36,485 nucleotides of DNA from Planctomycetota bacterium. GTDB lineage: Bacteria; Planctomycetota; Phycisphaerae; Phycisphaerales; SM1A02. The notes under the pieces were generated by a model. The model searched no databases, had not been told where the DNA came from, and saw only the letters and a list, made by a program, of their open reading frames with translations. Made by a program: the position numbers and the translations under genes. The stretch covers positions 1 through 36,485 of the forward strand of contig VGYQ01000021.1 in the NCBI GenBank assembly GCA_016872915.1, in the 5' to 3' direction. This document shows positions 133-32,513 of the stretch, one piece after another (the stretch's first letter is position 1; every line of letters begins with the position of its first letter).

Positions 133-998
133 GTGCGGTTCTTTCGGGGCGATGCCTTGGCCGAGTTGGTCGCAGCGGGCTTCCCCCACCAATCACTGCG
201 CAGGGGCGCGAGCAGTTGTTCAAGATGTGCACGGCCCGCGGCATTACTGCCCACGCCTGCACAGTGCGCCGCGGCGGCGAGGATTGTCTCTGGCAGTGGC
301 GACTCAACATCCACTCGCTTGCGCTGAAGCGGGTGGAGAAAACCAATGCGCCACGCATGCAGAAGAAGCGGTGGAGCATTCGGAACTCCGCGCGCTGCGC
401 TCGTGTTGGGAGGCAGCAGGGCGCGGTACACCCGGTCGCCCTCGACGGGTGCACCGAGCCACGCAAGGTGCGCGCGGATCTGATGAAGCCGTCCCGTTTC
501 AATCGCGCAGGCGACCAGCGCACTGCCACTCGCCGCAGCGACCACGCGCCAGTGGGTCACCGCGGCGAGTCCGCCACGCTGTGGAACGCTGATCTTCAGA
601 TCACCGCGGCGCACCTCCGCAAGGGGCTCCTGACATATGCCGTGCGTTCCCGGCAGCCTTCCCTTCACGATGGCGAGATATGCCTTGGCAACGGAACGCG
701 CCTCGAACTGCGCGCGCAGCGAGTCGTAGGCAGCTGCAGTTCGGGCAATGAGCACCACGCCTGATGTCTCGCGGTCGAGCCGGTGCAGGAGCCCCCAGTC
801 GCGCTGCGCCCCGAGTGAGGTGAGTGCGCTTCCATCGACTGCGAACGCACCGTTCAAGAGCGAGTCATTTGCATGCCCGAGCCCTGGCAGGGTGACCGTC
901 CCCGCGGGTTTCTCGACAGCGAGCAGGGCATCGTCCCGCAGCAGCACCGCGCATGGAACGGCGGGGTTGGCGACGGGCGCTTGCTCCACGCTTAGCAT
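129..998 (-). CDS. RluA-family RNA pseudouridine synthase
   Basis: A 289-residue pseudouridine synthase of the RluA/RsuA fold, which isomerises uridine to pseudouridine in rRNA or tRNA. The signature is LLHRLDRETSG at residues 70-80, where Asp75 is the catalytic aspartate of the HRLDxxTSG motif. The segments IETGRLHQIRAHLAWLGAPVEGDRVY and LLLHAWRIGFLHP are also typical of RluA. No N-terminal S4 domain is visible, as in the RluA/RluC-like single-domain enzymes. The RNA target cannot be told from sequence. The ATG at 998 sits inside a TAGGAT hexamer; the GTG at 989 lies 7 nt after that hexamer and is a credible alternative start. The stop overlaps the next gene's ATG. Confidence 0.88.
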   Translation of the reverse strand: MLSVEQAPVANPAVPCAVLLRDDALLAVEKPAGTVTLPGLGHANDSLLNGAFAVDGSALTSLGAQRDWGLLHRLDRETSGVVLIARTAAAYDSLRAQFEARSVAKAYLAIVKGRLPGTHGICQEPLAEVRRGDLKISVPQRGGLAAVTHWRVVAAASGSALVACAIETGRLHQIRAHLAWLGAPVEGDRVYRALLPPNTSAARGVPNAPPLLLHAWRIGFLHPLQRKRVDVESPLPETILAAAAHCAGVGSNAAGRAHLEQLLAPLRSDWWGKPAATNSAKASPRKNRT

Positions 999-1002
999 CC
1001 TA
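997..1002 (-). promoter_or_regulatory. Candidate -10 element of the pseudouridine synthase gene
   Basis: On the minus strand TAGGAT lies 7 nt before GTG(989) and overlaps the ATG at 998. If it is a -10 element the transcript would start near 989, favouring the GTG start and a leaderless message. No clear -35 is visible. Confidence 0.35.
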
Positions 1003-1028
1003 GGCTTCCAGCGAAAGGTGTTGCCCTG

Positions 1029-2237
1029 ATGTCAGCCACTCAGCAAAGCATGCACGGACCAAGCGCACGGCTCGCCCCCTTTGGCGAGTCAATCTTCACA
1101 ACGATGAGTCGCCTTGCCACGGAGCACAAGGCGGTGAATCTCGGTCAGGGGTTTCCTGACTTTGACGGTCCAGACTTTGTGAAGGAAGCGGCGCAGCGCG
1201 CCATCGCCGATGGGCATGGTCAGTATGCACGCGCTTTTGGACTGCCAGAGACCAATCGCGCGATCGCAGAAGCGGCACAAAGGACTTGCGGATTTCAGGC
1301 GGATCCCGAGCGCGAGGTCACCGTGACTGCCGGATGTACCGAAGCGATTGCCGCCTGTTTGTTGGGGCTGCTTTCGCCGGGCGATGAAGTGGTTCTCCTC
1401 GATCCCTCGTACGACTCCTACGCGGCGTGCGTGGCGATGGCGGGTGGTGTCGCGCGGCGTGTTCGGTTGGAGGGACCCGACTTCCGAATTCGGCGCGCAG
1501 ATCTGGAAGCTGCCTTTTCAAGCCGAACCAAGGCGATCCTTCTCAACTCACCGCACAATCCGACCGGACGAATGTTTGGTGATGACGAGTATGCGATCGT
1601 CGCGGATCTCGCCGAAAGGCACGATGCCATCATTCTGTCTGATGAGGTCTATGACGCAATCACCTACGCCCGGCCACACCAGTCCATCACTCGGATTCCA
1701 GGCGTGCGTGAGCGAGCGGTCATTCTTGGAAGTCTTGGCAAAACCTTTTCACTGACGGGATGGAAAATCGGTTGGACGATCGCGCCTCCATCCATCACGG
1801 CAGCCATTCGCTGCGCCCATCAGTTTCTGACATTTTGTGCTGCAACGCCGCTGCAGCGTGCCGCCGCAGATGCGCTCAGCACGGTGTGCCGCGATGATGC
1901 CTACCTCAGGCAACTGCATACGGAGTACACCGCGCGCCGCACAATGATGCTCGAGGTTCTCAGCGATGCAGGCTTTCAATGCGTCGAGCCAGAGGGTTCC
2001 TACTTCATCTTGGTGGATGCTGTGGAAGCCGGGTTCCCGGACGATGTGACCGCCGCACGCAGGCTTGTGGTGGAAGCGGGGGTTGCTGCCATTCCCGCAA
2101 GCAGTTTTTATGAGCCTGCGAATGCCGATCGTCGATGGCTGCGTTTCGCGTTCTGCAAGCGGGAATCAACCATGTTGGAGGCGCGTCGCCGTCTTCTGGC
2201 CAATCCGCCGCGCCGCTTGGCGGAACGCCCGGCCTGA
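1029..2237 (+). CDS. PLP-dependent class I/II aminotransferase (kynurenine/methionine aminotransferase-like)
   Basis: A 402-residue fold-type I aminotransferase that moves an amino group between an amino acid and a 2-oxo acid using pyridoxal phosphate. Landmarks are FGESIFTTMSRLA then AVNLGQGFPDFDGP near the N-terminus, PHNPTG at 175-180, SDEVYDA at 204-210, and SLGKTFSLTGWKIGW at 235-249, where Lys238 is the Schiff-base lysine. The N-terminal pattern matches the branch holding kynurenine aminotransferases, YbdL-type methionine aminotransferases and actinobacterial DapC-like enzymes, so the substrate is uncertain. A weak purine-rich site (GAAAGG) lies about 11 nt before the ATG. The start is 30 bp from the divergent pseudouridine synthase. 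bL21 follows 18 bp after the stop. Confidence 0.88.
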   Translation: MSATQQSMHGPSARLAPFGESIFTTMSRLATEHKAVNLGQGFPDFDGPDFVKEAAQRAIADGHGQYARAFGLPETNRAIAEAAQRTCGFQADPEREVTVTAGCTEAIAACLLGLLSPGDEVVLLDPSYDSYAACVAMAGGVARRVRLEGPDFRIRRADLEAAFSSRTKAILLNSPHNPTGRMFGDDEYAIVADLAERHDAIILSDEVYDAITYARPHQSITRIPGVRERAVILGSLGKTFSLTGWKIGWTIAPPSITAAIRCAHQFLTFCAATPLQRAAADALSTVCRDDAYLRQLHTEYTARRTMMLEVLSDAGFQCVEPEGSYFILVDAVEAGFPDDVTAARRLVVEAGVAAIPASSFYEPANADRRWLRFAFCKRESTMLEARRRLLANPPRRLAERPA

Positions 2238-2245
2238 TGTAGACT
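2217..2245 (+). promoter_or_regulatory. Candidate promoter of rplU
   Basis: TTGGCG (2217-2222), a 17-nt spacer, then TAGACT (2240-2245), with the rplU ATG 10 nt further on. The -35 lies in the last codons of the aminotransferase gene. The layout fits a sigma70-type promoter giving a leader of only a few nucleotides. Confidence 0.5.
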
Positions 2246-2255
2246 TTTCGGCCCT

Positions 2256-2573
2256 ATGTACGCGATCATCGAAGACAGTGGAACCCAGATCATGGTGCAC
2301 AAGGACGATGTCATTGACGTCGACCTGCGGAAGATCCCCGAGGGATCGACGACTGTGACTTTCGACAAGGTGCTCGCGGTTGGTACGCAGGACGGCACGG
2401 CCGCCCGCATTGGCGCGCCCTATCTTGCGAAGGCGACGGTCACCGCCGAAGTCGTCGGGAGCACTTCCGAAAAGACGACGCTGAACAAGTACTCGCGCCG
2501 CAAGGGTTACCGACGCCACAAGGGACACACGCAAAAGCGGGTCCAGGTGCGCGTGACAGACATCGCCGCGTGA
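2256..2573 (+). CDS. rplU: 50S ribosomal protein bL21
   Basis: A 105-residue bL21, a 23S rRNA-binding protein of the large ribosomal subunit; the length is normal for the family. It starts with MYAIIEDSGTQIMV, matching the usual MYAIIETGGKQY-type opening, and ends with the basic segment KYSRRKGYRRHKGHTQKRVQV that contacts rRNA. In most bacteria rplU is followed by rpmA (bL27) and often obg. Here the next gene is on the opposite strand 15 bp away, so the usual pairing is broken. No Shine-Dalgarno sequence is visible; a promoter-like pair lies immediately upstream. Confidence 0.95.
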   Translation: MYAIIEDSGTQIMVHKDDVIDVDLRKIPEGSTTVTFDKVLAVGTQDGTAARIGAPYLAKATVTAEVVGSTSEKTTLNKYSRRKGYRRHKGHTQKRVQVRVTDIAA

Positions 2574-2588
2574 GCACTCGTCGCGGGC

Positions 2589-3596
2589 TCATGCCTGCGA
2601 CAGCACTTCCAACATCGCTTGGGGAGATTCTGCTTCTCCCGTCCGTGCGCTGAGGCACACCGCCTCCATGACGGCACGGACGCGCTGCAGCATCAGTGGC
2701 GTCCATTCAGGCACGAGTGGGGGGTTCAATGCTGCATTCAGCAGCGCCGCGGGCAGCGAGTCTTCACCATCCGAGCAGTTTGGCGCAGGAGTCTCCAGGA
2801 CCTCATGTGTTGGGCTGCGCCATTCCATGTGCTGATCGTCCACAAAGATCGCGCCGACTGATCCGCTGACAAGGGCACATCTCTTCCAGTGCCAATGCCT
2901 ATTCGACGCAGCCAACGATGCTGTTCTTCCATCCGTGAATGCACAGGTCGCGCTGATCGAGCCCTCCCAGAAACGAAACAGGCGTGAACTCGCGTCGGGC
3001 TGTGACTCATGGGAGCGGTGCAGGCGTTCTGCAGTGCTTGCTGCGCTGACTCGCTCCGGCATGCCGAGCCACTGCACCAGCAAGGCGGAAACATCCTGCA
3101 GCCGTGCCAAGATCGATCCGCAGTTGCTCGGCGCAACGGAGGCCGCATGCAGCAGCTCTGGAGCCATGCCCTGAGCAATGAACGCGCTGGCTTGCGCGAA
3201 TGATCCCTCGTTTGGGAATCCAGGCAGCGGCATCTCCACGGTGCGCTGCCGCTCACGGCTTGCCTGCCGCATCCAAGGCTCCGTTGTCAGGAGCGCACCC
3301 GCGTGACTTGCGAGGGCATTCTCCTCGTCACTGTTCCCAAACCCGACATGCAAGATGGGCGACTGTGAGTGCTCTGCGCAGAAAGTGCGCAGATCGCTTG
3401 CGGATGCGCTTGCGGCGCCAAGGGAATCTCGGACGGCACGCAGCGGCGATCCGATGCGCACCGATCCAAGCGGGCGCCTCTGAAGCCCGCGGAGAACCCA
3501 CTCCGGGAGCGCTTCTCTCGACCAGACGCCAAGCAGAGGACCCCGAGGGAGATCCGCGGCGTCCGTTGGAGGGTTTGAGCGCGTTTCACTCGTCAT
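2589..3596 (-). CDS. Uncharacterised protein, possibly a degenerate Gfo/Idh/MocA-like oxidoreductase
   Basis: About 335 residues from the ATG at 3596; the frame stays open to 3644, and an in-frame GTG at 3605 is another option. The middle (SNCGSILARLQDVSALLVQWLGMPERVSA read in two parts) resembles the GG-x-LxDxGxHxxDLLxWLxG segment of Gfo/Idh/MocA oxidoreductases. A later VSGSVGAIFVDD and a C-terminal MLQRVRAVMEAVCLSARTGE resemble the end of that fold. However, no GxGxxG dinucleotide-binding loop or EKP motif is visible, so cofactor binding is doubtful. It converges on rplU and diverges from the RNase P RNA gene. A non-catalytic homologue or an unrelated protein are both possible. Confidence 0.6.
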   Translation of the reverse strand: MTSETRSNPPTDAADLPRGPLLGVWSREALPEWVLRGLQRRPLGSVRIGSPLRAVRDSLGAASASASDLRTFCAEHSQSPILHVGFGNSDEENALASHAGALLTTEPWMRQASRERQRTVEMPLPGFPNEGSFAQASAFIAQGMAPELLHAASVAPSNCGSILARLQDVSALLVQWLGMPERVSAASTAERLHRSHESQPDASSRLFRFWEGSISATCAFTDGRTASLAASNRHWHWKRCALVSGSVGAIFVDDQHMEWRSPTHEVLETPAPNCSDGEDSLPAALLNAALNPPLVPEWTPLMLQRVRAVMEAVCLSARTGEAESPQAMLEVLSQA

Positions 3597-3628
3597 GAAG
3601 TGCACACCTGCCACCACGATAGAGCCGG

Positions 3629-3655
3629 CTCGGGGCTCTCGCACGGCGCCCCGAG
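3629..3655. repeat. 8-bp inverted repeat between the divergent gene and rnpB
   Basis: CTCGGGGC (3629-3636) and GCCCCGAG (3648-3655) form a perfect 8-bp inverted repeat with an 11-nt centre. It lies just upstream of the putative rnpB -10 element, where a -35 would be expected. It may be an operator or a hairpin. Confidence 0.4.
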
Positions 3656-3661
3656 CGGAGT

Positions 3662-3667
3662 TAGGAT
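3662..3667 (+). promoter_or_regulatory. Candidate -10 element of rnpB
   Basis: TAGGAT lies 4 nt before the first paired base of the RNase P RNA P1 helix at 3672. The RNA's 5' end gives an independent anchor, so this placement supports TAGNNT as a working -10 form in this genome. No TTGACA-like -35 is seen. Confidence 0.45.
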
Positions 3668-3671
3668 GTCT

Positions 3672-4039
3672 GCGTGGTCAGGCAATCGCCCTCGGGATCT
3701 CCCCGAGCGAGGAAAGTCCGAACACGACAGGACACGGTGGTGGCTAACGGCCACCAGCTTCAGCGCAAGCTCGGGACAGTGCCACAGAAAACAGACCGCC
3801 GAGGCTTCTGCCTCGGTAAGGGTGAAAAGGTGCGGTAAGAGCGCACCGCCTTCTCGGTGACGAGAAGGGCACGGCAAACCCCACCGCGTGCAAGCGCAAG
3901 CAGTCCTCCGGCGGATTTTTCCGCCAGCCGCTGTCCGTGGCATGAGGACGGGTCGCGTGCTTTGAGTCCAGCGGCAACGCTGGTCCAGAGAGAAATGATT
4001 GCCGCCCGCAAGGGAACAGAATTCGGCTTACGACCACGC
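3672..4039 (+). ncRNA. rnpB: RNase P RNA (bacterial type A-like)
   Basis: The catalytic RNA of ribonuclease P, which matures tRNA 5' ends. Conserved blocks appear in order: GAGGAAAGTCCGAACAC near 3708, ACAGTGCCACAGAAAACAGACC near 3777 (read as two adjoining blocks), GGTAAGGGTGAAAAGGTGCG near 3815, AGAGCGCACCG, GGCAAACCCC near 3874, AGAGAAATGATTGCC near 3989 and ACAGAATTCGGCTTAC near 4016. The ends are set by the P1 helix, GCGTGGTC (3672-3679) pairing with GACCACGC (4032-4039). The length of about 368 nt is normal. The exact mature ends are inferred. A strong intrinsic terminator follows 6 nt later. Confidence 0.96.
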
Positions 4040-4045
4040 GCGCGG

Positions 4046-4083
4046 GGCGGATCTCCGAAAGGAGATCCGCCTCACCTTTTTTT
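4046..4083 (+). terminator. Rho-independent terminator of rnpB
   Basis: GGCGGATCTCC (4046-4056) pairs perfectly with GGAGATCCGCC (4061-4071) around a GAAA tetraloop, followed by CACC and seven T residues (4077-4083). It directly follows RNase P RNA. Confidence 0.95.
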
Positions 4084-4183
4084 GCAAGTGGACTGGCGGA
4101 TTTTCACGCCCGAAAGCCGATTCACAAAGCACTGCAAAGGCAAGGTTTAAGCATGGTGCCACTGCACATATTGAGCAAAACCC

Positions 4184-4211
4184 TTGAATGGGAAGTGCGC
4201 ATCGGTAAACT
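4184..4211 (+). promoter_or_regulatory. Candidate promoter of the 4222 gene
   Basis: TTGAAT (4184-4189), a 16-nt spacer and TAAACT (4206-4211), with ATG 10 nt downstream at 4222. This is one of the better -35/-10 pairs in the window. The stretch between the rnpB terminator and this site (4084-4183) shows nothing else recognisable. Confidence 0.5.
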
Positions 4212-4221
4212 CGGATGAGTC

Positions 4222-4803
4222 ATGAATTCCCCCACAAAGTCCACAAGTTTGCAGGCATACACGCTGCTTCTTTACCGAAAGGCTGTGCACCCTGAGTTTT
4301 TCGCCATCGACTCTCGCCGCCGCATGGAGAACGGCGAGATCGAGGCGGAGGCCTGGATTTTTCGAGGTGGACAGGTGGTGCGTTTCCAGAAGGAGAAGTT
4401 GTGTATCTGTGAAGTTGTGACGGACAACCCAAGCGCACTACCCGAGCGCGGTCTCACCAAGAACATGCTGTGTGCCGGCGAGCATGAGCATGAGGAAACC
4501 TTGGGCGACAACCTGACATTCATGACGGCGGTTCAAACGGAAACGCTGGCCGACCATCTGTACGTTGGCACGTACCGCGAAATGATGGGGCATGCAAAGG
4601 AAAACGGATCACTCTCCGTGCAGTGGAATGACGCCACAACGGGCAAGCCGAATCTGTCGTTGATTGATCTGCAACGCTTCCGTACGGAAATCCACGTGCA
4701 GGGTTGGCATCTGCGAAGTGACTGTGGCCTCGTGCTGCGGACGCAGTCCATGTTCCAGTTGAATGATCCAGCCGCCAAGGGCGCGCAGCGCGAAACGCGG
4801 TGA
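4222..4803 (+). CDS. Hypothetical protein coupled to uracil-DNA glycosylase
   Basis: A 193-residue soluble protein I do not recognise. It has no signal peptide or membrane helix. It is rich in beta-type segments (EAEAWIFRGGQVVRFQKEKLCICEVV), includes a Cys/His/Glu-rich patch MLCAGEHEHEETLGDNLTFMT at about residues 82-102, and ends in a charged tail. Its TGA overlaps the next gene's GTG start as GTGA (4800-4803), so it is very likely co-expressed with the glycosylase and may work with it, but nothing in the sequence shows a DNA-repair activity. A promoter-like TTGAAT/TAAACT pair precedes it. Confidence 0.75.
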   Translation: MNSPTKSTSLQAYTLLLYRKAVHPEFFAIDSRRRMENGEIEAEAWIFRGGQVVRFQKEKLCICEVVTDNPSALPERGLTKNMLCAGEHEHEETLGDNLTFMTAVQTETLADHLYVGTYREMMGHAKENGSLSVQWNDATTGKPNLSLIDLQRFRTEIHVQGWHLRSDCGLVLRTQSMFQLNDPAAKGAQRETR

Positions 4804-5588
4804 GTCAACCGACCCGCAGTGGCTCTGAGAACGCCGCTGGACAGGCCGATGGTGGGGCTGTTTCCGCGCACCGTGCCTGTGTCGAGTCCGACCGTCTGAT
4901 GGGGGTCTTGGATGTGCCCCTTGGAAACTGGTATCCACCTTCTTCACCGGTTTCGCCATCGCTCTCCGCGTCGCTCCCCGAAGATCGGCGTTCACACTGC
5001 GCCGCAATGCTCGCCGAACTGCGCGAGAGGCATGACCGCGAATGCCCGCACTGCACCCATGCGACGGCTCATCAGCGCACGGTCTTCGGCGAGGGTGATC
5101 CCTGCGCACGACTGATGTTTGTGGGAGAAGCTCCGGGTGAAACCGAGGACACACTCGGTCGACCCTTCGTCGGCAAGGCGGGGCGGAAGTTGGACGAGAT
5201 GATCCAAGCAATCGGACTGAGGCGCGAGGATTGCTACATCGCCAATGTGCTCAAGAGCCGACCGCCTGAGAATCGGGCGCCGCTGCCGCTGGAGGTCGAG
5301 CGCTGCAGCCCATATCTCGTGGAACAGCTGCTGATCATCCGCCCACGGGTCATTATGACGCTCGGTGGACCTGCCACCAAGATGCTGATGAACACAGACG
5401 TGGGGATTATGAAACTCCGAGGCTCCTGGTCTCAGTGGGTCGCGCCGCCCGGCAGTCCGATCGTCTCGATTCCCCTGATGCCGACCTTCCATCCCGCCTA
5501 CCTGATCCGCAACTACACCCTCGAAACCCGTGCGCAGGTCTGGTCTGACCTCAAGGCCGTGATGCATCGGCTCGCTGAAACCGCCTAA
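4800..5588 (+). CDS. Family 4 uracil-DNA glycosylase
   Basis: A 262-residue uracil-DNA glycosylase that excises uracil arising from cytosine deamination, starting base-excision repair. Motif A is GEAPGETEDTLGRPFVGKAG at 109-128; the second motif is TFHPAYL at 229-235 with His231. Family 4 enzymes bind a [4Fe-4S] cluster through four Cys. Here Cys82 and Cys85 (CPHC) and Cys169 are present, but the expected KCRPP reads KSRPP, giving Ser153. Cys145, eight residues earlier, is the nearest alternative. The first 60-70 residues, rich in Ser, Pro and Ala, are an extension beyond the usual family start. Start is GTG at 4800, overlapping the previous stop; an internal start is possible because the extension looks low-complexity. 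Confidence 0.9.
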   Translation: MSQPTRSGSENAAGQADGGAVSAHRACVESDRLMGVLDVPLGNWYPPSSPVSPSLSASLPEDRRSHCAAMLAELRERHDRECPHCTHATAHQRTVFGEGDPCARLMFVGEAPGETEDTLGRPFVGKAGRKLDEMIQAIGLRREDCYIANVLKSRPPENRAPLPLEVERCSPYLVEQLLIIRPRVIMTLGGPATKMLMNTDVGIMKLRGSWSQWVAPPGSPIVSIPLMPTFHPAYLIRNYTLETRAQVWSDLKAVMHRLAETA

Positions 5589-5708
5589 CCCATCCGTTAA
5601 TCGCGGGGGAGATGCCACAGGATTCTTCACTCATTTGCCGAACTTGCGCGCGATCGCTGCGTATGACTTGTTGAGGCTGATGCCTTCTCAGAAAGCAACC
5701 CCCACGAG

Positions 5709-5747: not shown

Positions 5748-5805
5748 ATCCGTGCATCGGGTTGCCCGATCTCGCAAGGGAGAGCTGCGGGAGCGTCCGA
5801 GTGAT

Positions 5806-7508: not shown

Positions 7509-7514
7509 ATTGTA
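7509..7514 (-). promoter_or_regulatory. Candidate -10 element of the MEMO-dtd operon
   Basis: On the minus strand TACAAT, five of six matches to TATAAT, lies 9 nt before the ATG at 7499. No good -35 is seen. The remaining intergenic stretch to 7679 holds an isolated TTGACA (7533-7538, plus strand) without a matching -10, and no gene. Confidence 0.45.
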
Positions 7515-7679: not shown

Positions 7680-9500
7680 ATGACACACTCTGCCATTTCA
7701 TTTTTCATCGCGAATCGCACGGCCTCACTCTGTGCTGGTCTTGTCGCTTGCGCCATCACTCTTTCGGCCACAGCGCAAGCTCCGCAGGCAAAACCCGATG
7801 CGCCTCCCGCGGTGCCGGATGGCGTGCCCGTTCCGAAGCCCGCTGCGTCGTCGACGCCAGGCATTCTGTCGCGGAACAATCAAGCAGGCCCCTCTGCCAA
7901 GGAATTGACTGCGAATCAGCCGAGTCTCGCACCGACACAGGATGGCATGGCACAGAAGGCACCTGCAGACGGGGCAGCGGGTCAGATTCCATCCGGGCCG
8001 CCGCCGATCGTTTTTGATCCACCGGTTCTGAACCTAGGTGAAATGCAGGCTGACATTCCAAAGACAGGCGTCATCAAGATTCGAAATGTCACGGACAAGC
8101 CGGTGACCATCGCTCGAGCCATTCCCGGCTGCGGCTGTACCACGGCCAATGCTCCGAAGGATCCGATCGCGCCAGGCGGTTTCGCCGAGATGGAGATCAC
8201 ACTGAAGCCTGGGCCGAAGCAGGGTGTCACCATGTCCAAACGGGTGACGTTCCAGATCGACGGTGCTGCGCCCGTGATTCTCACGGTTGAGGGACAGGTC
8301 GTGGCGTACATCACGGTGACGCCAGATGCGATCGATGGGCCTGATACTCCAGCGAATGCGAAGCCCGACTCAGGCAAGATCGTTTTGGCTGCCGTCGATA
8401 AGCAGGCGTTTAAGGTGACGGCGGTGAATCCCCCAGTGACGCAGCCCTTCAGTGATGCGGCATCCGAGGAGCACATTTTGCAGGTGGACTGGCAGAAGTG
8501 GCAGGATCAGGGGCGGCCGATCAAGCTGACGATCGCAACCGATCATCCGAAGGCGTCATCGCTCGGCGTCATGGTCAAGCGCCCGATTACCGCGCAGGAT
8601 CGTCCGAATCCCTTGGAGCCAACACAGCGGGCAACCACGCAGCCTGCAAGCGAACTGGTGGTGGCTGCGCAGCAGGGCAACGTGCCGCGCGTGAAGGAAC
8701 TGCTTGCAGTGCCGGGCGTCAATGTCAATGAAACCGATCCAGGAACGGGACGCACGGCACTCCACTGGGCGGCTCGCGAGAATCGCACGGAAATCATTGA
8801 CCTGCTGATTGCGGCAAAGGCGGATCCGAACTCCTCGGACCGAACGGGGAAGGGACCCCTGACGCTTGCCGCGGAAACGGGCAGCATTGATGCGGAGAAA
8901 CTCCTGATTGCCAAGGGGGCGAGTCTGACCAACCGAGACTCCATCGGCGGCACACCGCTGATCTGGGCATGCGGACTTGGAACAGGCGAGTCCGTGAAGA
9001 TTCTTCTCGAGAATGGTGCTGATGCAACCATCACAGATGTCAACGGTCTGACACCGCTCATTTGGGCAGCTGGCATCGGGAAGCCAGAGTCCGTGGCGAT
9101 CCTTCTTGAGCGCAATCCAAATCTGCCGCTTGAGGTGAAGGACGGCGTAACTGGAGACACCGCTCTGATGCGGGCTGTGCGGAGCGGCAAGATTGAAAGT
9201 GTTCGCATGCTCATCAACCGAAAGGCGGATGTGAACACTGTGAACAAGCAGGGATACACGCCCGTGCAACTCGCCGTGATGTCCGGCACCGCCGAAAAGG
9301 TCAAGCTGCTGATCGAGGCGAAGGCGGACCTTTCCGCGAAGGATGCAACTGGGCGGACTGCGCTGGACTTGGCTCAGCGCCGAACGGACGCAGCGGGTCG
9401 TGAGATTTTTGATTTGCTCAAAGCAAGCGGTGCGACCAGTGCCGTTCCGGTTCCTCCCCAAGGTGGGTCCGCTGAGTCTGGGAAGCCCGCAGGACAGTAA
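7680..9500 (+). CDS. Secreted DUF1573-ankyrin repeat fusion protein
   Basis: A 606-residue exported protein. Residues 1-33 form a Sec-type signal (hydrophobic LCAGLVACAITLSATAQA), followed by a Pro/Ala-rich linker to about 100. Residues 110-225 form a DUF1573 Ig-like domain: FDPPVLNLGEMQADIPKTG, then PGCGCTTANAPKDPIAPGG, the family CGCT signature. From about 315 to 590 there are seven to eight ankyrin repeats with clear TALHWAAREN, TPLIWACGLG, TPLIWAAGIG, TALMRAVRSG and TPVQLAVMSG helices. The reading frame stays open back to 6756, but that part is antisense to the MEMO gene; the signal peptide fixes the start at 7680. Likely periplasmic or surface-located, mediating protein contacts. The ligand is unknown. 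Confidence 0.88.
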   Translation: MTHSAISFFIANRTASLCAGLVACAITLSATAQAPQAKPDAPPAVPDGVPVPKPAASSTPGILSRNNQAGPSAKELTANQPSLAPTQDGMAQKAPADGAAGQIPSGPPPIVFDPPVLNLGEMQADIPKTGVIKIRNVTDKPVTIARAIPGCGCTTANAPKDPIAPGGFAEMEITLKPGPKQGVTMSKRVTFQIDGAAPVILTVEGQVVAYITVTPDAIDGPDTPANAKPDSGKIVLAAVDKQAFKVTAVNPPVTQPFSDAASEEHILQVDWQKWQDQGRPIKLTIATDHPKASSLGVMVKRPITAQDRPNPLEPTQRATTQPASELVVAAQQGNVPRVKELLAVPGVNVNETDPGTGRTALHWAARENRTEIIDLLIAAKADPNSSDRTGKGPLTLAAETGSIDAEKLLIAKGASLTNRDSIGGTPLIWACGLGTGESVKILLENGADATITDVNGLTPLIWAAGIGKPESVAILLERNPNLPLEVKDGVTGDTALMRAVRSGKIESVRMLINRKADVNTVNKQGYTPVQLAVMSGTAEKVKLLIEAKADLSAKDATGRTALDLAQRRTDAAGREIFDLLKASGATSAVPVPPQGGSAESGKPAGQ

Positions 9501-9510
9501 AGTCTGCGGG
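9486..9510. repeat. Inverted repeat at the ankyrin gene/carboxypeptidase junction
   Basis: CCCGCAG (9486-9492) and CTGCGGG (9504-9510) form a perfect 7-bp inverted repeat enclosing the upstream stop codon and the TAAAGT hexamer, and ending 1 nt before the carboxypeptidase ATG. No T-run follows, so it looks more like an RNA hairpin or operator than an intrinsic terminator. Confidence 0.45.
9498..9503 (+). promoter_or_regulatory. Candidate -10 element of the M32 carboxypeptidase gene
   Basis: TAAAGT overlaps the upstream TAA stop and lies 8 nt before the ATG at 9512. No Shine-Dalgarno is present. It sits in the loop of the 9486-9510 inverted repeat. No clear -35. Confidence 0.3.
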
Positions 9511-11587: not shown

Positions 11588-13483
11588 ATGCCATACGACC
11601 GATCCATTATTCGCAATGTCGCCATCATCGCACATGTCGACCATGGAAAGACAACCCTTGTCGATGCGCTGCTGCGCTCATCGAGTGCTGCGAGCGAGGT
11701 GGAGCAAGACGCTGAATGCGTCATGGACTCGAACCCGCTCGAGCGTGAGCGCGGCATCACCATCCTTTCGAAGAATTGCGCGGTCGATCATGTCGTGACC
11801 CGTGGTCTTCGCAAGGGAGATGCCATTCGTGTCAACATCATCGACACGCCGGGCCACGCGGACTTTGGCGGCGAAGTCGAGCGGGTCCTTCGCATGGCAG
11901 ACGGCTGTCTCCTGCTCGCGGATGCCATGGAGGGACCGATGCCGCAGACTCGCTTCGTGCTTTCCAAAGCGCTGGAAGTTGGCCTGCGTCCGATTCTGGT
12001 GGTGAACAAGTGCGATCGACCGGATGCGCGTCCAGATGCGGTGGTGGACGAGGTCTTCGACTTGCTCGTTGATCTCGGTGCCGATGATCACGCGCTCGAC
12101 TTCCCAGTCGTTTGGGCCTCCGGTCGCGAAGGCTGGGCCAGCCGCGACCGCGAGGATCGAACGCATGGCGTCGAGGATCTTTTCGCTGTGATCGCTGAGC
12201 ATGTTCCGCCGCCCACGGGCGACCCAAAAGCCGCTCTGCAGTTCCTCGTCGTCAATCTTGACTCCAACGACTACGTCGGGCGTCTTGGGATCGGCCGGGT
12301 GTTTGATGGAACGCTTCGCCCTGGACCCGTCGCCGTCTGCAAGTCAGACGGCTCCGTGCGCAAGGGGCAGGTTCAGGGGATCAAGCGCTTTGAGGGACTT
12401 GCGCGCGCGGCTGCCGATCTGATCGAGGCGGGTGATCTGTGTCTCATCGAGGGCATCACCGACATCGAGATCGGCGACACCGTCTGTCAGCCCGACTCGC
12501 CAAAACCGTTGCCGCGCGTCCACGTCGATGAGCCGACATTGCACATGGTCTTTCGAATCAATGACGGACCGCTTGTCGGGCGCGAAGGCAAGTTCGTGAC
12601 CAGCCGGCAGATCGCCGAGCGTCTCGAGCGCGAACTGCGTTCGAATGTCGCGCTCCGTGTGGCACCCGGCGATGGTGCCGAGGAGTTTCATGTGTCCGGT
12701 CGCGGACTTCTCCACCTGGGTGTTCTTTTGGAGACGATGCGCCGCGAGGGATTCGAGTTGACAGTCGGCAAGCCCAACGTCATCGAGCGCGATATCGGAG
12801 GTGTACGGCATGAGCCGTATGAACGACTCGCCCTCGATGTCGCACAGCATGCGATGGGGCCTGCGATGGAGTTGATCGGACAGCGTGGCGCGGAGGTGAC
12901 CAAGGTGGATATGCGCGGTTCGCGTGCTCACATCGAGGCGGATATTCCTGCGAGAGGTTTGATCGGACTTCGAAACAGGATTTTGAATGCCACGGGCGGA
13001 GAGGCCGTGATGCACCACTCGTTCTGTGATTACCGACCGGTGCGGATGCCTCCCCGGAAGCGCACGAATGGTGTCATGGTGGCGGTCGAGGCCGGAACGG
13101 CCACCACCTATTCGCTATTGAACTTGTCCGACCGCGGCGTGATGTTCGTCGCGAATGCGGATGTCATCTATGAAGGCATGATCGTCGGCGAACACAACAG
13201 AGATAACGACTTGCATGTCAACGTCGTGAAGGCGAAGGCGATGTCCAATGTTCGCGAGTCAAACAAGGAAGCCACCGTTGTTCTGAAGGCGCCGCGCCCA
13301 CTCACGTTGGAGTCGGCGCTTGAGTACCTCGAGGCAGATGAGTTGGTCGAGATCACGCCGACCGCTGTTCGCATACGCAAGCGGATCCTGAAGGAAAGCG
13401 ATCGGCGGAGAATCACGCGGCAGCAGAAGGACCGCGAAGCTGCAGCTGCTGCCGATGAAAGTGCGTCCGCGGGATCCCTCTAG
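11588..13483 (+). CDS. typA: Ribosome-associated translational GTPase TypA/BipA
   Basis: A 631-residue EF-G-like GTPase that acts on the ribosome in subunit assembly and stress or cold adaptation. The G-domain motifs are AHVDHGKT (15-22), RGITI (55-59), DTPGHADFG (86-94), NKCD (140-143) and ASGREG. Domain 2, domains III/V and the TypA-specific C-terminal region follow ([31 protein letters not shown] read in parts; [15 protein letters not shown]). The frame is open back to 11522, but [20 protein letters not shown] matches the usual opening, so 11588 is the start. No Shine-Dalgarno precedes it. It is followed by lysC after 12 bp. Confidence 0.95.
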
Positions 13484-13486
13484 CAT
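13481..13486 (+). promoter_or_regulatory. Candidate -10 element of lysC
   Basis: TAGCAT begins at the typA stop codon (TAG 13481-13483) and lies 9 nt before the lysC ATG. It could give lysC its own near-leaderless transcript. No clear -35 is visible inside typA. Confidence 0.3.
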
Positions 13487-20612: not shown

Positions 20613-20621
20613 TTCACGCGG

Positions 20622-20627
20622 AGGCTA
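20622..20627 (-). promoter_or_regulatory. Candidate -10 element of waaA-thiL-tsaE
   Basis: Minus-strand TAGCCT lies 9 nt before the waaA ATG in a 39-bp divergent intergenic region shared with the oxoprolinase-like gene. No clear -35. Confidence 0.4.
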
Positions 20628-20638
20628 GCCGACCGCGA

Positions 20639-20644
20639 TAGGCT
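20639..20644 (+). promoter_or_regulatory. Candidate -10 element of the oxoprolinase-like gene
   Basis: TAGGCT lies 7 nt before the ATG at 20652, which would make the transcript leaderless or nearly so. It is 11 bp from the opposing waaA -10, so the two promoters would compete. Confidence 0.4.
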
Positions 20645-20651
20645 CGCATGC

Positions 20652-25888: not shown

Positions 25889-25894
25889 CGCTAC

Positions 25895-25900
25895 ACTCTA
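25895..25900 (-). promoter_or_regulatory. Candidate -10 element of the YmdB-like gene
   Basis: Minus-strand TAGAGT ends 6 nt before the ATG at 25888. The spacing places the transcription start at the start codon itself. No clear -35. Confidence 0.4.
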
Positions 25901-26642: not shown

Positions 26643-26648
26643 TAGCAT
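26643..26648 (+). promoter_or_regulatory. Candidate -10 element of the TPR membrane protein gene
   Basis: TAGCAT lies 6 nt before the ATG at 26655. An AAGG touches the ATG and is too close to act as a Shine-Dalgarno site, which supports leaderless initiation. Confidence 0.4.
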
Positions 26649-26654
26649 AGAAGG

Positions 26655-28451: not shown

Positions 28452-28507
28452 CCCCTGGCAGCAAGTCTGCCGCAAATGCAAAAGAGTGCTTGACGCGCCC
28501 GAGTCGT

Positions 28508-28560
28508 AAAACTTGGTGAGATAATTTTTGTCTTTTATTTGCAGACATCAAAACTCGGTG
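28508..28560 (+). repeat. Direct repeat pair upstream of the CTERM protein gene
   Basis: AAAACTTGGTG (28508-28518) and AAAACTCGGTG (28550-28560) match at 10 of 11 positions and start 42 bp apart, about four helical turns. They flank an AT-rich stretch with GATAAT (28520-28525). Possible operator half-sites or promoter region of the 28642 gene. The rest of the 190-bp gap (28452-28641) shows no gene; a TTGACG (28490-28495) is too far from GATAAT for a standard promoter. Confidence 0.4.
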
Positions 28561-28641
28561 CATCTTTCGACACGTCTGGAGGGGGGTGAGGGGCTGAACC
28601 CGTTCGCGGTTGGTTCAGAAGCCTCGATTGGAAACCCTCCC

Positions 28642-29340
28642 ATGAAGACTTCACTTGCTTCCCTCGTTGCCGCACTTGCTGTGGCTTCTGCTTCCAACGC
28701 AGCCCTTGTGTACGGCGGCGGCACTGAAACGGGCAACCGTTTCAACGCTGGCGCCAATGCCATCGCATACATGAACTGCTTCACCGCCGTGAGTGCAGGC
28801 CAAAATCAGCTTGCTTTGGAAAGCGCGATTGTCGGCATCCGACGCATCGCGTCGGCGGGAGCGTTGCTTGATGTCGGCATCAACATCTACGCCGCTGAGA
28901 TGACCTTCGACGGTACGAACTTTGGCCGCGGTGCCAACACCCTGATCTACTCCTCGGCATCGCTCGGCGGCGGTGCAGCAAGCGTGACCCAACTCGTCAG
29001 CACTGGCGCGCTGTCTGGTGTCACCCTGAACCTGGAGACCGCCTCGAACGCTGGCTTTGGCGGCTGGTGGATGGGCGTTGAATTCACGGGTGCCAACGCT
29101 GCGAGCACTGCCAATGGATGGCGCGTCGTGAACGCCCCGACAACGGGTGCGTCCGTCAATGGATTCGGGGCGTTCAACCTCAATAACAGCAATGCCTTTC
29201 AGGCGTTCTTCGCCTTCGGCACCCCGCCGGGATCGTCTCCGAGCCGCCTGATGGTGGATGTGAACGGCTCGCTGGTGCCCGCTCCAGGCGCGATTGCGCT
29301 CCTCGGCGTGGCTGGTCTGGTCAGCCGTCGCCGCCGCTGA
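28642..29340 (+). CDS. Secreted protein with PEP-CTERM-like C-terminal sorting signal
   Basis: A 232-residue exported protein. Residues 1-21 (MKTSLASLVAALAVASASNA) are a Sec signal with an ASNA cleavage region. The body is Gly/Ala/Asn/Ser-rich, low in charge, and predicted mostly beta (FGGWWMGVEFTGANAAST). The C-terminus VPAPGAIALLGVAGLVSRRRR has the three-part sorting tag of Planctomycetota: a PAPG motif, a hydrophobic helix and a basic end. Such proteins are exported and processed by an exosortase-type or related enzyme, which is not in the window. The frame is open from 28528, but the signal peptide sets the start at 28642. A terminator hairpin follows. Its biological role is unknown. Confidence 0.87.
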   Translation: MKTSLASLVAALAVASASNAALVYGGGTETGNRFNAGANAIAYMNCFTAVSAGQNQLALESAIVGIRRIASAGALLDVGINIYAAEMTFDGTNFGRGANTLIYSSASLGGGAASVTQLVSTGALSGVTLNLETASNAGFGGWWMGVEFTGANAASTANGWRVVNAPTTGASVNGFGAFNLNNSNAFQAFFAFGTPPGSSPSRLMVDVNGSLVPAPGAIALLGVAGLVSRRRR

Positions 29341-29377
29341 TGCCAATCTGAATTCCATCGACAGAAGTTCGAAAACC

Positions 29378-29410
29378 AGCGCCCGCTGCGGAATCCGCGG
29401 CGGGCGCTTT
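29378..29410 (+). terminator. Hairpin terminator after the CTERM protein gene
   Basis: AGCGCCCGCTGCG (29378-29390) pairs with CGCGGCGGGCGCT (29396-29408), one mismatch, around a GAATC loop, followed by a short TT C. The T-run is weak. Downstream, 29411-29533 holds no convincing feature. Confidence 0.7.
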
Positions 29411-29533
29411 CACATGGATCTGTCTCCTCCGGTGCTTCGTAGCCAGCCCCCTCAGCCAAGTGCGCTGCGGCATAGCCGTGCCGGTGCCCACAACGAGGGC
29501 TCGGGCGAAAGGAAGGGAGTGCGGCGCGTGTCC

Positions 29534-29539
29534 TATCCT
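29534..29539 (+). promoter_or_regulatory. Candidate -10 element of the ureohydrolase gene
   Basis: TATCCT lies 10 nt before the ATG at 29550. No Shine-Dalgarno and no clear -35 are seen. Confidence 0.3.
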
Positions 29540-29549
29540 CCCCACCGCT

Positions 29550-30599
29550 ATGAGCAAGTCGTCCTTCGATCCCGATGCGGCAGCGACTGGTGATGGACTG
29601 TTCGGGCTCGACTGCGAGCTGAGCACCGCACGCGTTGTCGTCATCCCTGTGCCATTCGATGCGACCACCAGTTACCGCGCGGGTACAGCACGCGGTCCAT
29701 CGCATGTTCTCGCTGCAAGTCAGCAGGTGGATCTCGAGGACATCCAGTTTGGCCCCATCTGGGAGGCTGGGATCGCCATGCTTCCCATCTCCCGCGACAT
29801 CGCTGCACTCTCGCGCCGCGCACGCGCCGCGGCCGAGCCGATCATCCGCGCAGGTGGCGCCAACCCGCGCAACACATCGCATGCGAAGGCCGTGGCTTCC
29901 GTGAATGCCGCGAGTGAGAAGGTGAATGCATTCGTCGCGCGCGAGTCGGCACGCATCATCGGGCGTGGCGCGATTCCCGCGGTGCTCGGCGGCGATCACT
30001 CGACTCCATTTGGGCTGATCAGCGAACTGTCGCGCCGCCATCCTCGCATGGGCATCCTCCAGATCGACGCACACGCGGATTTGCGCGACCGTTTCGAGGG
30101 CTTCTCCTGGAGCCACGCGAGCATCTTTCACAATGTGATGACGCGGCTGCCGCGGGTGAGAAAGCTCGTGCAAGTCGGAATCCGCGATGTGGGTTCGCGT
30201 GAAGTCGATTTCGTCCGGCAATCGCGAGGACGCGTACGCACCATCTACGACCAGCGCCTGCGCGACCGCCAGTTTGGCGGCGCCACATGGACTCGGGTTT
30301 GCAGGGATGTGATCGCTGCGCTGCCGCAGGAGGTTTACATCTCCTTCGACATCGATGGACTGACGCCTGAGTACTGCCCTGACACGGGAACGCCCGTGCC
30401 CGGCGGGCTGACATTTGCCGAGGTGTGCCATTTGATTGAACTGCTGAGCCGCAGCGGCCGCCGCATCCTGGGTTTCGACCTGTGCGAGGTGGCTCCGGAT
30501 CGGCACGGCGGCGAGTGGAACGGATCCGTTGGCGCTCGGGTGCTTTACAAACTTGCAGGCTGCGCGGTCGCGAGCCAATTGCGCCGCCGACGCGGGTGA
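29550..30599 (+). CDS. Arginase/agmatinase-family ureohydrolase
   Basis: A 349-residue binuclear manganese hydrolase that cleaves a guanidino or formimino group. Metal ligands are visible: GGDHS with His150, DAHAD with Asp173, His175 and Asp177, and SFDID with Asp267 and Asp269. The loop SFDIDGLTPEYCPDTGTPVPGG has Thr where DP is usual, a position outside the metal ligands. SHASIFHNVM after DLRDRFEG is a variant of the substrate loop, so arginase, agmatinase and formiminoglutamase remain possible. The frame is open from 29460; MSKSSFDPDA at 29550 is the most plausible start. Confidence 0.88.
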   Translation: MSKSSFDPDAAATGDGLFGLDCELSTARVVVIPVPFDATTSYRAGTARGPSHVLAASQQVDLEDIQFGPIWEAGIAMLPISRDIAALSRRARAAAEPIIRAGGANPRNTSHAKAVASVNAASEKVNAFVARESARIIGRGAIPAVLGGDHSTPFGLISELSRRHPRMGILQIDAHADLRDRFEGFSWSHASIFHNVMTRLPRVRKLVQVGIRDVGSREVDFVRQSRGRVRTIYDQRLRDRQFGGATWTRVCRDVIAALPQEVYISFDIDGLTPEYCPDTGTPVPGGLTFAEVCHLIELLSRSGRRILGFDLCEVAPDRHGGEWNGSVGARVLYKLAGCAVASQLRRRRG

Positions 30600-30641
30600 G
30601 TGGCTCGCATGAATGCCTGTGACTGCGACGAGATGCTCTGA

Positions 30642-30675
30642 AAACACCACCGCCCCCCGTTGGGCCGGAGGGCGG
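30642..30675 (-). terminator. Hairpin terminator after tRNA-Val (minus strand)
   Basis: On the minus strand CCGCCC (30675-30670) pairs with GGGCGG (30655-30650) around a GC-rich loop, followed by TGGTGTTTT. It lies 10 nt after the tRNA 3' end. The T-run is short. Confidence 0.55.
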
Positions 30676-30684
30676 CAATGGCAG

Positions 30685-30758
30685 TGGACCGTACTGGACT
30701 TGAACCAGTGACCTCCTCCGTGTCATGGAGGCGCGCTAGCCAACTGCGCCAACGGTCC
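30685..30758 (-). tRNA. tRNA-Val (anticodon GAC)
   Basis: A 74-nt cloverleaf including the discriminator base A. Acceptor stem GGACCGT/ACGGTCC, D arm GCGC-AGTTGGCTA-GCGC, anticodon stem CCTCC/GGAGG with loop ATGACAC giving anticodon GAC, variable AGGTC, and T arm ACTGG-TTCAAGT-CCAGT. GAC reads valine codons GUC and GUU. The 3' CCA is not encoded (CTG follows the discriminator), so it must be added enzymatically. It lies 43 bp downstream of gltX on the same strand and may be co-transcribed with it. Confidence 0.95.
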
Positions 30759-30801
30759 GTTGTTCTGAAGTCTACCGCCGCGCGGCAGTCCGACAACCGG
30801 C

Positions 30802-32478
30802 TCAGCGCGGACTGGCTGCACGCAGGGTCTTGAAGTGCGCAGTGCAGCGGCGAATGCGCGCCAGTGAACTTTCGCGTCCGAGGATCGCGAGCGTGTCGAA
30901 GATCGGTGGCGAGACCGTTCCGCCGGCAACCGCCACGCGCAGCGGCTGCGCCACCTTTCCGAGTTGCCCCCCACTGTGCGCGTCTGCGAATGGCTTCACG
31001 AGCGCTTCCAAATCGGTCGCGGTCCAGGAGGAATGCGCCTCAAGAATCGGCAGCAGCGACTCCAAGTGATCCGCACCGCACGGCGAGCCATCGAGCATCG
31101 CTTTCTGCACCTGTTTGCTCGTCTCCCAACAAAGGTCGTCGTCCGCAAGCATCAGGAAGCGATTGCCTCGGAACATGTCATCGAGCGTCTTGCTGCGTTC
31201 TTGGCTTGCGCGCGCAAGCATGGTGAATCCAGCCGGCCCAAGCCGAGCCATGAAGTCGGGGTGGTACATGTTGCCATGCGCTGCGGCGCGCCGTTCAAAA
31301 TCCTCTGGAGTCATGCCCGTGATGGCATCGCAGTTGAATGACATCAGTTTCACGCGATCGAACTTGGCGGGCGTCTTCACCACACGCTTCGGGTCGAAGT
31401 GCGTTCGCAGGAACTCGAGGTCGAACTTCTCGATATCGTTGCCCGGGCTCCAGCCATTGAGTGCAAGGAAGTTGATGATCACCTCAGGCAAGTAGCCCGA
31501 GCGCTTGAAGTCGTCGACATTGATTTCCGGCAGCGTCACTCCGATTGCGTCCGCGAGCCGCTGCGCGGCGTCGAGTTCGAGTTGAATGTTCTTGTCGCCG
31601 AGCCACGCGTTCCAGACGGTGGCGTCCACTGTCGCCGCTGGCGGCGCGGAGAGCCCTCGCTCGGCGACTGCCTTGCGCAGCGCCTTGTCCTTGTCGCGCT
31701 TGCTCATCTTGCTGCCATCGGGATTGCAGATGATCGGCAGGTGCGCATACGCGGGGCGGCGGAATCCGAGCGCATCCTGCAGCAGCATGTGCCGCGCCGT
31801 GTTGGTGAAGTGCTCCTGCGCACGCAGCACATGCGTGACCTGCATCAACTGATCATCCACCACCACGGCGAAGTGGTAGGTCGGGAAGCCATCCGCCTTG
31901 CGGATCACAAAGTCGTCGATCTCGGTGGCGGGAATGGTGGCTTCGCCGAGCACTTCGTCGCAGATCGTGACATCGTGGCCCGGACACTTCAGACGGATGA
32001 CCGCCGGCGTTCCTGCGGAAAGTTTCTCCTGCACCTGCGCTGCCGAAAGTTGCAGCGCGGCACGGTCGTAGCGGTACGCGCGTCCACCCGCGGTTGCCGC
32101 CTTGCGCTTGGCGTCCAGTTCCGCCGCTGTCTCGAACGCGTAGTAGGCATGCCCCGCGTCGATGAGTCGTTGCAGATGCGCGTTGTAGATGTCGAGGCGT
32201 TCGCTCTGGAAATACGGGCCGTGCGCGCCGCCACCTGTCCCCTGCCAGATGGGCCCCTCGTCCCACAAGATTCCCAGCCAGTGCAAGTCCTTGGCGAATC
32301 CGATGCTCGCCGCGTCGCTTGACCGCTTCTGATCCGTGTCCTCGATGCGAAGCACGAACCGTCCGCTGCGCCCCTTGGCAAACGCCCAGCAGAACAGCGC
32401 CGTTCGTGCGCCACCCACATGCAAATGCCCCGATGGGCTTGGCGCGAATCGCGTGACGATGGCGGACGAGTCGTTCAT
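30802..32478 (-). CDS. gltX: Glutamyl-tRNA synthetase
   Basis: A 558-residue class I synthetase charging tRNA-Glu (or also tRNA-Gln if a GatCAB route is used). The HIGH-type motif is PSPSGHLHVGG (13-23) and KMSKR is at 257-261; RFVLRIEDTDQ (40-50) is typical. Bacterial GluRS usually goes from KMSKR almost directly to SGYLPEALLNFLALLGW; here about 60 residues (262-325) are inserted before SGYLPEVIINFLALNGWSP. The frame is open to 32553, but MNDSSAIVTRFAPSPSG at 32478 is the usual start. No Shine-Dalgarno is visible. Confidence 0.95.
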   Translation of the reverse strand: MNDSSAIVTRFAPSPSGHLHVGGARTALFCWAFAKGRSGRFVLRIEDTDQKRSSDAASIGFAKDLHWLGILWDEGPIWQGTGGGAHGPYFQSERLDIYNAHLQRLIDAGHAYYAFETAAELDAKRKAATAGGRAYRYDRAALQLSAAQVQEKLSAGTPAVIRLKCPGHDVTICDEVLGEATIPATEIDDFVIRKADGFPTYHFAVVVDDQLMQVTHVLRAQEHFTNTARHMLLQDALGFRRPAYAHLPIICNPDGSKMSKRDKDKALRKAVAERGLSAPPAATVDATVWNAWLGDKNIQLELDAAQRLADAIGVTLPEINVDDFKRSGYLPEVIINFLALNGWSPGNDIEKFDLEFLRTHFDPKRVVKTPAKFDRVKLMSFNCDAITGMTPEDFERRAAAHGNMYHPDFMARLGPAGFTMLARASQERSKTLDDMFRGNRFLMLADDDLCWETSKQVQKAMLDGSPCGADHLESLLPILEAHSSWTATDLEALVKPFADAHSGGQLGKVAQPLRVAVAGGTVSPPIFDTLAILGRESSLARIRRCTAHFKTLRAASPR

Positions 32479-32507
32479 GGCAAATGGGGCTCTTCGCGGC
32501 ACATTCC

Positions 32508-32513
32508 TACCAT
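32508..32513 (+). promoter_or_regulatory. Candidate -10 element of the YfcE-like gene
   Basis: TACCAT lies 9 nt before the ATG at 32523 in the 44-bp divergent region shared with gltX. No clear -35 or Shine-Dalgarno. Confidence 0.35.

Follow-up and report, generated by a model that had tools for sequence, protein, structure and literature searches.

TANNNT hexamers directly upstream of planctomycete genes as probable -10 boxes of promoters for leaderless mRNAs

A stretch of 36,485 nucleotides from a Planctomycetota bacterium of the order Phycisphaerales (GenBank assembly GCA_016872915.1, contig VGYQ01000021.1; hereafter the window) carries hexamers of the form TANNNT shortly before the start codons of twelve genes. 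These hexamers are, in our opinion very probably, the -10 boxes of sigma-70 promoters that lie so near to the open reading frame (ORF) that transcription would begin at the start codon or 1–4 nt before it. As judged from their upstream sequences, about 25–35% of the operon-first genes in the genus are probably leaderless or have leaders of 1–4 nt. A sequence-only reading of the window had listed the twelve sites and proposed that initiation in this lineage relies on leaderless mRNAs. All twelve hexamers were found where it had placed them, with gaps of 6–10 nt to the start codon as it had said. Its view of them as -10 boxes of leaderless genes is upheld by their position and strand, by mutual exclusion with Shine-Dalgarno (SD) sites, by footprints in orthologues, by the RNase P RNA and signal recognition particle (SRP) RNA genes as anchors and by -35 boxes at two of five genes, while the words "relies on" are not.

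The window spans contig C21 from end to end; this contig is one of 108 in a metagenome-assembled genome (MAG) of 2.09 Mb (90.6% complete). Together with 20 further stretches of 20 kb, the window gave a sample of 436 kb, about one fifth of the genome, on which 326 genes were called. The gene caller used coding potential alone and was blind to TANNNT, so that the starts could not be fitted to the motif. A gene was taken as operon-first (n = 167) if it was divergent or lay more than 100 bp from its same-strand neighbour, and TANNNT was scored when it started at -16 to -12 from the start codon. Sixteen windows further upstream, 200 dinucleotide shuffles and the reverse-complement motif served as controls. 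The motif search before operon-first genes, which the sequence-only reading had asked for in advance with shuffles as comparison, came out clearly in its favour. TANNNT was present at 47 of the 167 operon-first genes (7 in the window, 40 outside it), as against 1–7 in the control windows, a mean of 4.0 and a maximum of 11 in the shuffles and 5 for the reverse complement. The hits peaked at -16 to -12, and the commonest position was -12 (22 of all 71 hits). Divergent genes alone gave 42/120. The frequency varied with the gap to the preceding gene, from 3/60 below 10 bp to 7/28 at 10–30 bp and 13/50 at 31–100 bp, and many of the TANNNT genes with gaps of 10–100 bp may have their own promoter. 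In the window itself, 11 of 29 called gene starts (control rate 4.1 per 167 first genes) and 7 of 18 operon-first genes carried the hexamer.

The hexamer and SD sites did not occur together in this sample. Among 318 genes, 71 had TANNNT alone, 49 had an SD site alone, 198 had neither and none had both, although about 11 would be expected to have both if the two were independent. Of the 71 hexamers, 26 had G as the third base, 25 had C, 14 had T and 6 had A; 40 had C as the fifth. The earlier statement that most sites are TAGNNT is thus correct for the listed ones (7/12) and does not extend to the genome; genome-wide, the motif reads TANNNT with a preference for C as the fifth base, and TAGNNT is an effect of the window.

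An anchor that does not depend on start codons is provided by genes for untranslated RNAs. Upstream of the RNase P RNA gene, a -10 hexamer TAGGAT lies at 3662..3667 (+). All 16 intact genus copies have TANNNT, then exactly six variable nucleotides and then GTG[GA]T[CT], which is the start of the conserved, paired part of the P1 helix. T1, A2 and T6 of the hexamer are invariant in these copies, and positions 3–5 vary (TAGGAT, TAGCAT, TACGAT, TACGCT, TACCCT), with TACCCT in 12 of the 16. This comparison covered 16 of 19 genomes, leaving out the end-cut copies of G002, G003 and G022 and an unlike copy (L109) in G005. The distance of 4 nt between hexamer and P1 that had been given before has to be corrected accordingly: six variable bases separate the hexamer from the invariant part of P1. 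In single sequences the P1 pairing can extend nearer to the hexamer; P1 defined as the longest stem was discarded as a reference, since the first paired base varied, and the genus-invariant block was taken instead. The predicted transcription start of the RNase P RNA (3674..4044, +; Rfam match 3671–4044) is G3674, seven nucleotides after the last T of the hexamer (T6+7). This is the usual distance from a -10 box to the transcription start, and a hexamer at -12 stands equally far from the first base of ATG. A putative -35 box, CTCGCA, is found at 3638..3643 (+), where the genus has TTCGCC or TTCGCA with an 18-bp spacer (T14 C13 G15 C16 of 16 at -23 to -20 from the hexamer). In other families the RNase P RNA is preceded by TATAAT, TATGAT or TACCAT.

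The SRP RNA gene shows the same arrangement. TANNNT, always in the form TANNAT, occurs 28–31 nt before the Rfam match in all 15 genus genes found by the covariance search that supplied the coordinates; G009, 1 of the 16 genus genomes, gave no match.

Two of the protein-coding genes have a conserved -35 box in addition to the hexamer. The promoter of rplU (ribosomal protein L21) has TTGGCG at 2217..2222 (+), 17 bp upstream of the -10 hexamer TAGACT at 2240..2245 (+), which itself ends 10 nt before ATG 2256. Aligned on the -10 box, ten sequences show T10 T10 G8 G10 C10 G8 at this place, so that a -10/-35 promoter stands directly against the ORF in 10/10 sequences, that of the window included. 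The gene at 4222, for which no Pfam family was found, has TAAACT at 4206..4211 (+), 10 nt before its ATG, and TTGAAT at 4184..4189 (+) with a 16-bp spacer; TTG is present in 12/12 sequences. RNase P RNA, SRP RNA and these -35 boxes indicate that the hexamer is most likely a -10 box and argue against a translational signal.

If the RNase P RNA gene is taken as the guide, RNA polymerase would start some 7 nt beyond the final T of the hexamer. With the hexamer at -12 the mRNA would begin directly with AUG, and positions from -13 to -16 would leave a leader of at most about 4 nt. Neither kind of transcript could hold an SD site, so that the ribosome would have to recognise the 5'-terminal start codon directly, as in mycobacteria and Deinococcus. 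We propose that this mode coexists with leadered, SD-led genes, and that closely spaced genes in operons, which mostly have no hexamer, would rely on overlap or on SD sites.

The blind caller agreed with the listed start codon at all but one of the 12 sites, and it is these starts that are given below unless stated otherwise. Orthologues were taken as genus-like when their loci had 80–97% BipA identity, and TANNNT was counted as retained within -18 to -11 of the start; orthologues whose alignment showed no start codon at the corresponding place were left out (10 genus-like ones for the hexamer genes, namely 4 for M32 and 6 for the hydantoinase, and 13 for seven control genes). On this basis the hexamer is kept in 60 of 61 genus-like orthologues, while its distance from the start shifts by a few nucleotides. 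Seven window genes without a hexamer had TANNNT in only 1 of 44 orthologues. The 60 orthologues were chosen by the motif and hence have unchanged T1, A2 and T6 by construction, and positions 3–5 changed 17, 29 and 22 times among them. When the 61 were aligned on flanking bases alone, matches to the window were 47, 44 and 44 for T1, A2 and T6 and 33, 28 and 37 for positions 3–5.

For rplU, TANNNT was retained in 9/9 genus-like orthologues, and for the gene at 4222 in 11/11, with 0/4 among distant ones with an aligned start. The same holds for TACAAT at 7509..7514 (-), 9 nt before ATG 7499 of a Memo-like protein (11/11), and for TAGCAT at 13481..13486 (+), 9 nt before ATG 13496 of aspartate kinase (13/13). 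The M32 carboxypeptidase gene has TAAAGT at 9498..9503 (+), 8 nt before ATG 9512; three of its four genus-like orthologues with an aligned start have TANNNT and one has an SD site. TAGCCT at 20622..20627 (-) lies 9 nt before ATG 20612 of a Kdo transferase (KdtA-like) gene and is matched in 9/9 genus-like and 8/11 more distant orthologues with an aligned start. TAGGCT at 20639..20644 (+) lies 7 nt before ATG 20652 of a hydantoinase/oxoprolinase A+B gene (2/2 genus-like orthologues with an aligned start). The shortest gaps, of 6 nt, were seen for TAGAGT at 25895..25900 (-), before ATG 25888 of a YmdB-like gene, and TAGCAT at 26643..26648 (+), before ATG 26655 of a tetratricopeptide repeat (TPR) protein gene (1/1 orthologue each). 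TAGGAT at 997..1002 (-) stands 7 nt before GTG 989 of a pseudouridine synthase gene that had no genus-like orthologue among the loci compared, and none of three distant orthologues with an aligned start had TANNNT. For TATCCT at 29534..29539 (+), 10 nt before ATG 29550 of an arginase family gene, no orthologue was present among the loci compared. The weakest of the twelve is TACCAT at 32508..32513 (+), 9 nt before ATG 32523 of a metallophosphoesterase gene, for which the blind caller preferred ATG 32484. The called starts of this gene (+) and of GltX (-), in 32478–32523, leave 5 bp between them, and one of the two is probably wrong.

The kdtA and hydantoinase/oxoprolinase genes are divergent and separated by a gap of 39 bp (20613–20651) in which the two -10 boxes stand back-to-back, 11 bp apart, so that the -35 region of each promoter must fall in or at the opposite gene. 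Both boxes are retained in L002 and L003.

Several observations weigh against the interpretation of the hexamers as -10 boxes of leaderless genes, or make the evidence for it less than it seems. The orthologues and the genus RNA genes share ancestry and hence are not independent. In the flank-only alignment the flanking bases match in 25–45 of the 61 orthologues, so that the contrast with T1, A2 and T6 is modest. Geometry accounts for part of the exclusion between TANNNT and SD sites, and the two do occur together at 2 of 124 first genes in five congeners. As many as 97 of the 167 operon-first genes have neither signal at the called start, which is partly due to start errors. Three of the five aligned promoters, those of the Memo, aspartate kinase and kdtA genes, show no clear -35 box. 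Nor did k-mer enrichment over 124 hits reveal a general -35 consensus, 4- and 5-mers being within the null, yet conserved -35-like boxes exist at rplU, the gene at 4222 and RNase P; the 3-mer TAG was above the null (4.4 against null maxima of up to 3.5). C at -1 was considered as a transcription-initiator signal and rejected, as SD-led genes have it in 32/49 and TANNNT genes in 44/71 cases; it counts for nothing. A free-standing CarD was considered as a helper of -10-only promoters and likewise dropped: the sole CarD_TRCF_RID match is in a frame of 1143 aa, probably Mfd.

It is conceivable that TANNNT near the start is instead a non-SD translational signal, for example an A/U-rich contact for bS1 or the ribosome, as has been proposed for phyla with low SD use. 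The hexamer does occupy the usual position of a ribosome binding site, the genome encodes a frame with six S1 domains, and Nakagawa 2017 (PMC5397173) could not separate leaderless from S1 effects. However, the hexamer precedes the untranslated RNase P RNA with the 6-nt spacing, and SRP RNA as well. It has conserved -35 boxes 16–17 bp upstream at two genes, and it is rare (3/60) in closely spaced operon genes, which need translation just as much. We therefore regard this explanation as very unlikely. About equally improbable is a variant that accepts the hexamers as -10 boxes but places the true starts further inside the ORFs, so that leaders and SD sites would exist after all. Start codons in a MAG are unproven, and most of these genes have further in-frame starts within 50 codons. 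On the other hand, the start codons and N-termini of the orthologues align along with the hexamer, the gap drifting by a few nucleotides only, and the hexamers form a sharp peak at -12 to -16 from the blind starts.

The least credible account, to which we give practically no weight, is that a common hexamer arose by chance or from upstream stop codons, or that start codons were picked to suit it. It is true that the site at 32508, and to a degree those at 997 and 29534, need a start other than the first of the ORF, and that at 9498 and 13481 the first base of the hexamer is also the first base of the stop codon that closes the preceding gene (BipA in the case of 13481), so that T and A have a second reason to exist there. 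For aspartate kinase, the hexamer lies on the BipA stop in 5 of 13 genus-like orthologues and is separate from it in 8. Nevertheless, the motif-blind starts reproduce 11 of the 12 sites and add the 40 operon-first hits outside the window, the shuffles and other controls are far lower, and the same signal appears in the five congeners. Upstream stop codons could be ruled out as a general source by the divergent genes and by the rarity of the coincidence: 4 of the 71 hits reuse the preceding stop (TAA or TAG) as the first three bases of the hexamer, none of these 4 being among the 47 operon-first hits, and the other 67 lie off called upstream stops. As a general account, this explanation is refuted.

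While the leaderless class thus appears to be substantial, the claim that initiation relies on it was too strong. The hexamer is present in 28% of operon-first genes when blind starts are used. Tolerance for start errors raises the count to 64–71 of 167 against 11–18 in controls, an excess of about one third. The claim is also countered by SD-like sites in 17 of the 60 genes with gaps below 10 bp (control 3.4) and by an intact anti-SD sequence, the 3' end of the 16S rRNA being GGATCACCTCCTTTCTAA. Operon-first genes have SD-like sites at about twice the control level (23/167, control 10.3). Besides the bS1-like frame with six S1 domains, of which there is one, the genome has one match each to IF3 and bS21. 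Nothing points to a loss of SD initiation.

We could also follow the signal across the order and phylum, counting operon-first genes with TANNNT at -16 to -12 (control in brackets). To the 47/167 (4.1) of the genome itself, the five congeners add 30/124 (3.4) and loci with 80–97% BipA identity 14/60 (1.8). Four other families of the order gave 13/128 (3.6), 16/116 (4.4), 3/32 (1.1) and 3/41 (0.6). BipA loci of 60–73% identity had 52/290 (9.0) and those of about 52% identity 0/32 (1.5), and one other family of the class had 5/29 (4.3) at a GC content of 48%. Eight more distant genomes of the phylum yielded 1/42 (4.6), 4/33 (4.9), 0/37 (1.5), 1/19 (0.4), 1/21 (0.3), 2/18 (0.3), 4/25 (0.6) and 0/32 (0.9). 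The signal thus weakens from the genus, where it is strong, to other families of the order, and most of the sampled outgroups lack it. G084 (4/25) and G050 (2/18) exceed their own controls, and independent occurrences are possible. SD-like sites of first genes tend in the opposite direction across these groups, with 10–14% in the genus sets, 23–34% in the four other families, 17% in the loci of 60–73% identity and 6–44% further out.

For single genes the change can be followed more closely. Outside the genus, 22 rplU orthologues with an aligned start comprise 16 with an SD site, 4 with neither signal and 2 with TANNNT. The latter two (L028 and L058) were classed by a hit at -18, yet they also have AGGAG before the start. 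TANNNT is found at -37 to -41 in 8 of the 22. It looks as if rplU lost its leader within the genus, the direction being inferred. By contrast, the leaderless state of kdtA looks older, because TANNNT is present in the 8 of 11 distant orthologues. Aspartate kinase is mixed, with 13 TANNNT, 17 SD and 14 neither among 44 orthologues. A tentative scenario, which we would put at slightly less than even odds, is that in the Phycisphaerales a part of the operon-first genes went from a leadered, SD-led to a leaderless state by loss of the leader, and that the order forms a graded series that catches this transition. Genes for some highly abundant proteins (DnaK, EF-Ts, S15, acyl carrier protein) would have retained their SD sites, and moderate housekeeping genes (valS, mutS, dnaN, pyrH) would be leaderless.

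The gene classes behind this scenario come from a small and non-random set: names were sought for 18 of the 40 leaderless and 10 of the 22 SD-led first genes outside the window, the leaderless ones being mostly the higher-scoring and the SD-led ones hand-picked. Among the predicted leaderless genes, valS, mutS, mnmG, miaB, dnaN, ispH and pyrH passed the curated NCBIfam cut-off and a leucyl aminopeptidase remained below it; 7 of the 18 had no match at the thresholds used. Among the SD-led genes, dnaK, tsf, rpsO, acyl carrier protein and murJ passed, and ftsK and superoxide dismutase were below the cut-off.

The leaderless class as such is known, and what seems new is the lineage. The TA-led genes of Zheng et al. 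2011 (PMC3160421) likewise have TANNNT about 12 bp before the start, are contrasted with SD-led genes and have uninformative middle bases in GC-rich genomes. They make up more than 20% of genes in Actinobacteria and Deinococcus-Thermus, and words beginning with Planctomyc- or Rhodopirellula are absent from the main text of that paper. In Deinococcus-Thermus, TANNNT also lies directly upstream of ORFs (Zhong et al. 2025, PMC12340547). There it was proven by experiment to be the promoter -10, an added -35 raises transcription, and about 30% of ORFs are affected on average; the planctomycete case is predicted from sequence, comprises 71 of 318 called genes of one genome and is strong in only part of the order. 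Mycobacterium tuberculosis has a TANNNT -10 without a conserved -35, and about one quarter of its genes with a primary transcription start site are leaderless (Cortes et al. 2013, PMC3898074), among them 7 of 14 genes for tRNA ligases. In that species the leaderless class is avoided by core growth genes, and the sampled genes here are similar with the exception of rplU: no ribosomal protein gene of M. tuberculosis is leaderless, whereas rplU has the leaderless signature in all ten sequences.

As for planctomycetes, Nakagawa 2017 (PMC5397173) includes one Planctomycetes species with low SD use and attributes the bias to leaderless mRNA and/or S1, and Phycisphaerae are listed in a table of anti-SD types in PMC10783764. 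The GeneMarkS-2 survey, cited in PMC9581028, predicted leaderless transcription in 21.6% of bacterial species, so this kind of expression is common. Among open-licence literature searched by title or start of the abstract, we found no report on leaderless expression in Planctomycetota or Phycisphaerae; planctomycetes may already be covered by the GeneMarkS-2 survey or in supplementary figures of PMC12340547. The present observations would extend leaderless bacterial expression to a planctomycete order and improve the rule by which start codons are assigned in its genomes. With the RNase P RNA gene, the spacing from promoter to start can be calibrated without RNA data, and the graded differences between families of the order would make it possible to study gene by gene how SD leaders are lost.

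Some minor observations concern the RNA genes. A subset of the genus (L111–L122 and L126) conserves AGTCTACG, or a near form of it, immediately ahead of the RNase P RNA -10 box. G005 has two unlike RNase P RNA genes, and the better-scoring one (L109, G005:C8) does not have the genus pattern; this copy may be a contamination. Among L231–L246, the genus loci have an AGTGTAG-like block about 10 nt before the SRP RNA -10 box, which is too close for a -35. The 5' end of tmRNA is processed, and tmRNA was not used as a further anchor: ARAGORN gave tmRNA genes in 9 of 22 loci, all outside the genus. No tmRNA match was obtained in the window's own genome (G000) or in G005, and 13 of the 14 other congeners searched were over the cut-off. 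The genus tmRNAs, unreported by ARAGORN, score below those of most other families. The relatives found through BipA are planctomycete MAGs with Phycisphaerae, Phycisphaerales or Planctomycetia in their titles, the closest at 97% identity. Several are named after lakes, for example Baikal, and the habitat of the genus is probably freshwater.

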